NCBI RefSeq assembly: GCF_003732545.1
Contig: NZ_AYKF01000065.1
Span: forward strand, 1 to 58,634
Source of the DNA: Salinisphaera orenii subsp. halophila YIM 95161
Lineage (GTDB): Bacteria; Pseudomonadota; Gammaproteobacteria; Nevskiales; Salinisphaeraceae
Direction: 5' to 3'
DNA length: 58,634 bases
Positions 28,807 to 33,335 of this stretch are shown one piece after another; position 1 is the first letter of the stretch; the number at the start of each line of letters is the position of its first letter. A model generated the notes under the pieces. That model was not told where the DNA came from, searched no databases, and saw only the letters and a list, made by a program, of their open reading frames with translations. The position numbers were made by a program, and so were the translations under genes.

Positions 28807-29181
28807 ATGTCCGCATCCGTCACCCGCTGGGCCCTGCCCTGCGCCGCCCTGATGTGTCTCGGCGCCGTGGCCTGCACCACGGCACCCGAGCCGGCGCAGC
28901 CGGGTCCGCTCGATGAGCCCATCGATGCCTTCGAGACCATCGGCGAGCCGGTTCGGCCCGGCGCGAGCGACCGGGATCGCCGCAATCTGTCGACCGACAT
29001 CGAGCGGCTTCAGAACGCCCGCAGCAAGTATGAGAACGAGCAGGAGCGGCTGAGCGCCGAGGCCCGGCGTCGCCAGGCCGAATGCCGCGCCCGGGCCGAC
29101 TCCCGTGAGGTGCCGATCGAGGACGGCAGCGGCGATCCCGCGGCCACCTACTGCCAGCCGGCCGAGGACGGCGATCGGTAG
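28807..29181 (+). CDS. Small lipoprotein with coiled-coil segment
   Basis: A 124-residue protein. The N-terminus (ALPCAALMCLGAVACTT) is a signal peptide with a lipobox at GAVAC; cleavage before that cysteine is expected. The middle (TDIERLQNARSKYENEQERLSAEARRRQAEC, split) is charged and helical, likely coiled coil. Two later cysteines could pair. No family recognised. GGGGAG precedes the ATG at a good distance. Confidence 0.65.
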   Translation: MSASVTRWALPCAALMCLGAVACTTAPEPAQPGPLDEPIDAFETIGEPVRPGASDRDRRNLSTDIERLQNARSKYENEQERLSAEARRRQAECRARADSREVPIEDGSGDPAATYCQPAEDGDR

Positions 29182-31888: not shown

Positions 31889-32070
31889 GTCTGGATCATC
31901 ACCTGCTGCACGGCGCGGCGAATGCTGGCCTGTTTGTCACGATGGGACAAGTGTCGAAAAATCGATCACCGACCCGCCTGCAATCTACAAACGCGCGACG
32001 CTATGATAATTTGTCAGTGCCCGACCGAACGATACACCGGTCGTACCAACGCAAAACAAGGAGTTTTGAT
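31889..32070 (+). promoter_or_regulatory. Divergent promoter region with -10 box for the Lpp-like gene
   Basis: The 182-bp gap includes TATGATAAT at 32002-32010, a strong -10 in such GC-rich DNA; the -35 position (near 31979, TGCAAT) is weak. A short inverted repeat TTGTC/GACAA lies near 31935-31951. An AAGGAG ribosome site (32058-32063) precedes the ATG, as expected for an abundant lipoprotein. Confidence 0.6.
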
Positions 32071-32325
32071 ATGACCAAGACGCTGCTGAAATCCGCTTTC
32101 GTGATTGGCGTGGTCACTGCCGCCGCCGGCTGTGCGAGCAATTCCGACGCCACCCAGTCCCAGATCGACCAGGCCATGCGCAAGGCGGAATCCGCCCAGA
32201 CGACGGCCAACGAAGCGCAGCGTACGGCCAACCGCGCGATGCAGACCGCCCAGGAGGCCAAGTCCGCTTCGCAGGCGAACTCGCAGCGCATCGAGCGCAT
32301 GTTCGAGTCCTCGCAGCGCAAGTAA
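32071..32325 (+). CDS. Lpp/OprI-type alanine-zipper outer-membrane lipoprotein
   Basis: An 84-residue lipoprotein: signal peptide and lipobox AAGC (cysteine about residue 21), then a heptad coiled coil rich in Ala, Gln and Asn (AQTTANEAQRTANRAMQTAQ), the form of Lpp and Pseudomonas OprI trimers. The C-terminus is SSQRK; E. coli Lpp ends in Arg-Lys, the lysine being linked to peptidoglycan. So it may anchor the outer membrane to the wall. A good AAGGAG, a strong -10 box and a strong terminator flank it. The neighbour gene encodes an L,D-transpeptidase, the enzyme class that makes that link. Confidence 0.88.
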   Translation: MTKTLLKSAFVIGVVTAAAGCASNSDATQSQIDQAMRKAESAQTTANEAQRTANRAMQTAQEAKSASQANSQRIERMFESSQRK

Positions 32326-32360
32326 GGCGCGCCGCGTCTTAGCGCCTCAGGGCGCCGCGA

Positions 32361-32385
32361 AAGCCCCGCTTCGGCGGGGCTTTTT
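32361..32385 (+). terminator. Rho-independent terminator of the Lpp-like gene
   Basis: AAGCCCCGC, loop TTCG, GCGGGGCTT, then further Ts. The stem is nine pairs with a stable UUCG loop. It lies 35 bp after the lipoprotein stop and just before the end of the convergent transpeptidase gene; on the other strand only three Ts follow the stem, so reverse termination would be weaker. Confidence 0.92.
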
Positions 32386-32393
32386 CGTGGGCG

Positions 32394-33335
32394 CTATTCG
32401 TCGTCGCGGATCTCCACCCCGATCGGCTCGGGGATGCCGTCGGCGGTCTCGACGATCTTCTGGGCGCGGTCCCAGTCCACCGGCGAACTCTGGCGCGACT
32501 CGGTGGCGCCGATAACCGCCTCGACCCAGGGCGTGAAGGAGCGCACCGGCGCATCGCCGCTGGCGTCCGGCGGATGGGCTTCGATGTAGAGCGTGTTGCC
32601 CTCCCGACCGATCTTGTAGGGCTCGCTGATGATGTTGACGGGCGTGCCCGGCTCGACCATCGAGAACAGCGACGCGATGTCCTCGGGATAGAGCCGGATG
32701 CAGCCGTGCGAGACCTTGAGCCCGATCCCGGCCGGCTTGTTCGTGCCGTGCAGCAGATACGACGGCATGCCCAGATAGAGCGCGTGCTGGCCGAGCGGGT
32801 TGTCCGGACCGGCGGGCACCACGTCCGGCAGTTCCTCGCCCTGGGCCGCGTGTTCCTTGCGGATCGAGGCCGGCGGCGTCCAGGTGGGGTCGGCCTTCTT
32901 GCGCACGATCGTGGTCTTGCCCAGCGGGGTCGACCAGCCCTCGCGGCCGATGCCCAGTGGATGCGTCACCACCCGGCCGGCGTATTCGCTGCCCTCGGGC
33001 GGGAAGTAGTAGACCCGCATTTCGGGGATGTTGATCACGATGCCGCGGCGCGGCACGTCCGGCAGCACATAGCGCGTGGGAATGACGACCTCGGTGCCCT
33101 CGCCGGGCAGCCAGGGATCGACCTCGGGATTGGCCAGCCGCAGTTCGCGATAGCCCACGTTGTAGCGGCGCGCGAGTTTGACGAAGGTATCCTCCTCGCG
33201 CGTCTCGATGTGCTGCAGTGCGCCGACGAGATCGTCGCCCTCGGCGGGCATGTCGTAGATGGCGGCCTGCGCGGGAAGCGCGGCGAGCAGCGCGAGCAGG
33301 AGCAGGCAGGCGGGCCGGAGGGCGCGCAGTGTCAT
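32394..33335 (-). CDS. L,D-transpeptidase (ErfK/YbiS/YcfS family)
   Basis: A 313-residue periplasmic enzyme. A Sec signal peptide (residues 1-24) is followed by a LysM-like segment (EDTFVKLARRYNVGYRELRLANP, split) and a YkuD catalytic domain with His196-Gly-Thr-Asn and Ser209-His210-Gly-Cys212-Ile-Arg214; Cys212 is the nucleophile. YbiS, YcfS and ErfK attach Braun lipoprotein to diaminopimelate in the wall. The convergent Lpp-like gene with a C-terminal lysine fits that role. Confidence 0.93.
   Translation of the reverse strand: MTLRALRPACLLLLALLAALPAQAAIYDMPAEGDDLVGALQHIETREEDTFVKLARRYNVGYRELRLANPEVDPWLPGEGTEVVIPTRYVLPDVPRRGIVINIPEMRVYYFPPEGSEYAGRVVTHPLGIGREGWSTPLGKTTIVRKKADPTWTPPASIRKEHAAQGEELPDVVPAGPDNPLGQHALYLGMPSYLLHGTNKPAGIGLKVSHGCIRLYPEDIASLFSMVEPGTPVNIISEPYKIGREGNTLYIEAHPPDASGDAPVRSFTPWVEAVIGATESRQSSPVDWDRAQKIVETADGIPEPIGVEIRDDE

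Follow-up and report, generated by a model that had tools for sequence, protein, structure and literature searches.

Two neighbouring genes of the Salinisphaera genome studied here very probably encode a tether between the outer membrane and the cell wall, in which an L,D-transpeptidase would link the C-terminal lysine (Lys84) of an OprI/Lpp-type lipoprotein to peptidoglycan. What we observed in its favour is the sequence anatomy of the two proteins, their family matches, a conserved terminal lysine, and a conserved neighbourhood. Both genes lie in the window, by which we mean the whole stretch of DNA analysed (58,634 nucleotides); it makes up contig C65 of a genome assembled into 153 contigs with a total of 3.79 Mb. 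The mechanism is already known elsewhere, and the window pair extends the known tether to the Salinisphaera lineage. Because this mechanism has been shown for OprI and LdtPae2 of P. aeruginosa, according to excerpts of the study concerned (PMC10434034), the pair is an addition to a known kind of tether.

The lipoprotein gene (32071..32325, + strand) follows a Shine-Dalgarno-like AAGGAG (32058..32063, + strand, by direct reading of the sequence) and encodes an 84-residue protein, which begins MTKTLLKSAFVIGVVTAAAGC and ends in ESSQRK; the sequence-only reading had likewise seen an 84-residue lipoprotein with an RK tail here. As expected of the Lpp/OprI family, it has a lipoprotein signal peptide with a lipobox (AAGC at residues 18-21), lipidation is predicted, and the mature part from Cys21 comprises 64 residues ending in SSQRK. 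The protein passes the thresholds of two families, with 58.4 bits against 43 for NCBIfam NF040598 ('Lpp/OprI family alanine-zipper lipoprotein') and 44.7 bits against 23.1 for Pfam PF11839 (Alanine_zipper). When the helix is read in its best-scoring heptad register, nine a/d core positions in a row are alanine (from the C-terminus backwards, the core runs K S M I N S A A A A A A A A A I T S C), and the heptad score of the mature protein was reached by none of 20,000 shuffles; taken together, these results indicate that the alanine register is not due to chance. Cys21 and Lys84 were invariant in all 17 aligned sequences from the order, one relative carrying an extra lysine after the latter. By each feature checked in its sequence, the window lipoprotein belongs to the OprI/Lpp family. 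No other Alanine_zipper match in the whole genome passes the cut-off, two further ones (E up to 1) falling below it, and the lipoprotein gene adjoins one of the five YkuD genes present.

The second gene (32394..33335, - strand) encodes an L,D-transpeptidase of 313 residues, and the two stop codons are 68 bases apart. Between them lies a predicted intrinsic terminator of the lipoprotein gene (32360..32385, + strand), consisting of a perfect GC-rich hairpin at 32363-32380 (GCCCCGC-TTCG-GCGGGGC) followed on the lipoprotein strand by five T. The 56-base stretch gave folding z values of -3.25 and -2.99 on the two strands, and the terminator scan of the stretch returned 2 terminator-like sites against 0.9 expected. 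A 'two-way' terminator was ruled out, since on the enzyme strand the same hairpin folds but has just three T behind it, and the terminator scan did not report it. An operon was likewise ruled out because the genes are convergent with the hairpin between them. Elsewhere in the window, a gene at 28807-29181 (+ strand) encodes a second small lipoprotein (124 residues, with the lipobox-like start VACTTAPEP), and the gene downstream of it is presumably SelO/YdiU-like; a weak match of similar appearance was seen 728 bases beyond the enzyme at locus L142.

The enzyme matched Pfam YkuD over residues 97-235 with 76.3 bits (cut-off 23.4) and carries the motifs HGTN and SHGCIR, the latter fitting SXGChR with Cys212 as the catalytic residue, which bears out the convergent transpeptidase of the sequence-only reading. 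Cys212 and Arg214 were invariant in 17 of 17 aligned enzyme sequences. The hydrophobic N-terminus is likely a signal peptide, as judged by eye, and residues 46-73 form a LysM-like segment whose match is weak and below the cut-off. An AlphaFold2 model built with 33 aligned sequences (pLDDT 89.4) had as its first Foldseek match Klebsiella 4lzh (TM 0.78 normalised by the query, 0.87 by the target), a solved relative whose fold the window enzyme is predicted to share. By sequence, the nearest solved chain was 9tyw_A, with 142 identical residues (50.5%) over enzyme positions 28-308. In the list of distinct sequences this entry and 9tz4 ('Major outer membrane lipoprotein', ending in ASRK) are consecutive, which suggests that both come from one study of a Pseudomonas pair; we take 9tz4 to be OprI, and from this neighbouring entry we infer that 9tyw is LdtPae2. 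Residues 31-84 of the window lipoprotein aligned with 9tz4 at an E of 0.16, which is not significant, and SNAP-25 chains scored alike.

None of the E. coli names can be transferred to the enzyme. Its best NCBIfam equivalog was LdtE (NF047955), at 231.1 bits against a cut-off of 480, and PRK10260 (212.5 bits, cut-off 583) and PRK10190 (211.9 bits, cut-off 517) were also missed; the name LdtE was rejected because the curated cut-off was missed by half, and with all these equivalog cut-offs unreached, the enzyme should not be named LdtA, LdtB, LdtC or LdtE. A detaching amidase of the DpaA/YafK kind was ruled out as well, since SHGCIR keeps the arginine where the DpaA-type motif SXGChA has alanine; a motif with alanine replacing arginine has been proposed for detaching enzymes such as DpaA in the available parts of PMC10434034. 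The enzyme is a YkuD transpeptidase of a kind similar to LdtPae2 and is no E. coli equivalog. Scanned as fragments, the genome's remaining four YkuD domains all stayed below curated cut-offs, with best matches to PRK10594 (146.7 bits; we take this profile to be LdtD), ElsL (165.8 bits) and DpaA (44.3 and 26.1 bits), and the YkuD protein on contig C13 carries NGCIA, a motif of the type proposed for detaching enzymes. For a DpaA-like role the window genome shows just these weak DpaA matches, in which respect it differs from Pseudomonas.

The closest known system is that of P. aeruginosa, where, in the excerpts of PMC10434034, LdtPae2 (PA14_27180) is an anchoring enzyme of the ErfK/YbiS/YcfS/YnhG lineage and the only one that anchors OprI, while loss of either OprI or LdtPae2 renders cells EDTA-sensitive. 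The likeness to the window pair lies in a lipoprotein with an Arg-Lys C-terminus together with a YkuD enzyme. The sequence-only reading had stated that such enzymes link the C-terminal lysine of Lpp to the wall and that OprI-type proteins of Pseudomonas have a similar tail; this function has been demonstrated by experiment in P. aeruginosa (PMC10434034). In E. coli, Lpp is anchored by LdtA, LdtB and LdtC through its lysine side chain, which is joined to diaminopimelate, and is detached by DpaA, as stated in excerpts of PMC12729407. The likeness to the E. coli system consists of the C-terminal lysine, an alanine-rich helix and, for the enzyme, the fold of Klebsiella 4lzh, and the shared mechanism would follow by analogy; unlike the E. 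coli system, the window has one neighbour enzyme and not three, and this enzyme fails the E. coli-type profile cut-offs. The E. coli genes for LdtA, LdtB and LdtC are scattered.

By comparison with OprI/LdtPae2 of P. aeruginosa and Lpp/LdtABC of E. coli, we infer lipidation, trimer formation, the chemical link and the enzyme responsible for it, and the window pair most likely works like the former. After export, the lipoprotein would receive its lipid at Cys21 and take its place in the outer membrane, and its 64-residue alanine-zipper helix would assemble, by analogy with Lpp, into a three-helix rod across the periplasm that presents Lys84 at the wall. The YkuD enzyme would load a peptidoglycan tetrapeptide stem onto Cys212 with release of D-Ala, and then join the diaminopimelate to Lys84 through the amine of its side chain. 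In the literature searched, outside which most subscription journals lay, we found no account of the neighbourhood rule or of the cysteine pair described below, and nothing on a Salinisphaera lipoprotein with a transpeptidase or on oprI and ldtPae2 as neighbours in Pseudomonas (PA2853 with PA2854).

The enzyme may serve more than one substrate. If it also attached other proteins with a C-terminal lysine, the system would be one of general rather than dedicated anchoring, as in Dickeya, where the Lpp-anchoring enzymes also attach OutB (excerpts of PMC12274547 and PMC12729407), and as the acceptance of the diverged E. coli Lpp by LdtPae2 would lead one to expect (PMC10434034, in part). A further alanine-zipper lipoprotein that passes the cut-off is absent from the genome, which argues against this broader role, and we consider it unlikely but still deserving of appreciable weight.

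The conservation of the neighbourhood was assessed in an order sample of 85 genomes, with the enzyme called at an E below 1e-60. It was found in 28 genomes, every one of which also has the lipoprotein, and in 26 of these the two genes lie within 1.7 kb on one contig. The co-occurrence in relatives on which the sequence-only reading had staked its proposal thus survived. The lipoprotein was found directly in 24 of the 28, and the other four (G016, G017, G026 and G043) have a diverged one adjoining the enzyme, with lysine as the last residue and E from 7e-12 to 1e-20. Separate contigs accounted for the remaining two genomes: in G073 the genes are at contig ends, and in G083, a member of the same genus, the lipoprotein lies on a contig other than that of the enzyme and away from its end. 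At this lipoprotein locus (L016, G083:C88:10150-13401) a SelO-like gene is kept upstream but the enzyme gene is not kept downstream, and is found at the start of contig C126; the arrangement is either a rearrangement or an assembly break. In six genomes of family f4 (G016, G017, G026, G040, G043 and G049) the lipoprotein gene is 3' of the enzyme gene on the same strand (tandem loci L056, L057 and L063-L066), and the genes are convergent in G035 of the same family. The tandem order indicates that adjacency persists where orientation has changed. Weak lipoprotein matches in G003 (E 0.008) and G007 (E 0.006) were seen without an enzyme; the co-occurrence p of 2e-17 for the order was computed without these two, and we therefore rely on the counts instead.

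Beyond the order, a scan with the enzyme alignment alone supplied the named loci, namely the best 80 of 580 confirmed ones, and their lipoproteins were searched with a profile built from the order sequences. A lipoprotein was present in 59 of these 80 enzyme loci; 57 of the 80 were convergent within 1 kb, and two more had the genes at 2.8 and 3.4 kb. No recognisable lipoprotein was found in the other 21 of the best 80 of 580, even with a second, broader profile; these include Chromatiaceae, Methylococcaceae, Nitrosomonas and two of three Acidithiobacillus loci, and in three of them (L086, L133 and L147) the contig runs out no more than 500 bases from the enzyme. One record among the loci (L102) is titled Klebsiella pneumoniae and is metagenome-assembled; its enzyme groups with uncultured Gammaproteobacteria in the tree, and the title is probably wrong.

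In a sample of the class with one genome for each genus (143 in all), NF040598 matched in 40, the enzyme in 66, and both in 37 (Fisher p 7e-13, for related and hence not independent genomes). The enzyme was thus present in 37 of 40 genomes with a lipoprotein match versus 29 of 103 without one. Among the 40 lipoprotein genomes, the genes were convergent within 1 kb in 29, convergent at about 4 kb in two, tandem in two and far apart in one, while three had the enzyme on another contig and three had no enzyme. These last three (G131, G132 and G163) carry proteins unlike alanine-zipper lipoproteins, with weak scores and reading frames that run off the fetched stretch. The flanks of the 29 class enzymes without an NF040598 match were searched locally with a profile, as far as 2 kb to either side. 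A diverged lipoprotein was clear in one genome (G176, with a terminal lysine and two cysteines), a candidate in G218 was very weak (E 0.006), and no convincing lipoprotein turned up within 2 kb in the other 27, some of which lie near contig ends. This speaks against a class-wide pairing rule: the two genes are paired in the nearer branch of these enzymes, not in all. Our confidence in anchoring is left unchanged, because that claim rests on the order sample and the nearest enzymes. As for the 'dedicated pair' of the sequence-only reading, the neighbourhood and the co-inheritance stand, but co-transcription does not, given convergent genes with a hairpin between them, and the pairing does not reach all enzyme branches.

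The enzymes without a nearby lipoprotein, in 21 loci among the best 80 of 580 and in most of the 29 class genomes, would also fit an enzyme that is mainly a 3-3 cross-linker of the LdtE kind, whose neighbourhood is historical and whose place in anchoring is taken by another YkuD enzyme. LdtE was the best NCBIfam profile and, in the excerpts of PMC10434034, falls within the lineage of the anchoring enzymes, anchoring and cross-linking enzymes forming no separate lineages. However, the lipoprotein is kept in all 28 order genomes with the enzyme, and the four YkuD domains elsewhere in the genome, compared as fragments, best match PRK10594, ElsL and, weakly, DpaA, not the anchoring group. We therefore regard a cross-linking role as improbable and keep to the enzyme as the one that would anchor its neighbour.

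The C-terminus of the lipoprotein is the point at which such a tether would meet the wall. Lysine is the last residue in all 59 lipoproteins of the enzyme loci (from the best 80 of 580), against a background of 4.8% of 4639 mechanical open reading frames from the same loci, and in 35 of the 36 lipoproteins of the class sample (the window and three false matches being left out). Neither count involved a filter on the terminal residue, since a filter on lysine or arginine would bias the tails. With these tails and the strong co-occurrence with the enzyme in the class sample, it is extremely improbable that we are dealing with an unattached coiled coil of the outer membrane whose terminal lysine is coincidental. 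The penultimate residue is variable (Ser 24, Ala 13 and Arg 6 of the same 59), and a Gln-Lys tail occurs in 7 of 14 genomes of the genus in a search that demanded terminal lysine or arginine. Thus, the Arg-Lys tail pointed out by the sequence-only reading exists in the window protein but is ruled out as a signature of the family, only the final lysine being conserved. The mature part ranges from 59 to 104 residues across the 57 loci with a recognised lipobox (from the best 80 of 580), compared with 64 in the window, and this variation may reflect differing periplasm widths.

In the same tails, cysteines come mostly in pairs or are absent. We counted them in the last 30 residues of 73 labelled sequences (the 59 loci from the best 80 of 580, 13 order relatives, and the window): 49 have two, 24 have none, and not one has a single cysteine, while independent placement would give about 26 singles, with a minimum of 11 in 20,000 simulations that ignore relatedness. 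The class sample, three false matches again left out, gave two cysteines in 20 of 36 tails, none in 15, and a single one in 1. Measured back from the last lysine, the pair lies at 18/17 in 32 of the 49, at 14/10 in 9 (Sedimenticola group), at 14/13 in 5 (Methylophaga group), and at 19/18, 18/14 and 4/3 in one each; positions 17, 14 and 10 before the lysine are core a/d positions in the heptad register of the window protein. On the tree of the enzymes, 11 changes are needed to account for the 18/17 state. The pattern of two cysteines or none covers loci L070-L145 (e.g. L107, L116 and L126), L149-L186 and L189, and the pair is absent at 32071-32325 in the window, in the genus mates and in the stretch of 9tz4; G069, of the same family but another genus, has the 18/17 form. 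E. coli Lpp is not known to carry such a pair either. In trimeric coiled coils and collagen knots, a closed disulfide ring in a trimer needs two cysteines per chain. We tentatively speculate, though we lean somewhat against it, that in most of the sampled relatives with the gene pair the trimer is locked by an interchain disulfide ring at its wall-facing end, the two cysteines of each chain being gained and lost together.

Two parts of this work deserve to be followed, namely the cysteine pair and the gene neighbourhood among nearer relatives. The lineages do not settle which YkuD enzyme anchors the lipoprotein, according to the excerpts of PMC10434034, and the conserved neighbourhood hints at which of the several YkuD enzymes in a genome does so. 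If interchain disulfides form, a class of protein that ranks among the most abundant in bacteria would gain a covalent lock. A real disulfide ring would also make the best-studied tethers the exceptional ones and put the anchoring of the outer membrane under the control of oxidative folding (DsbA).
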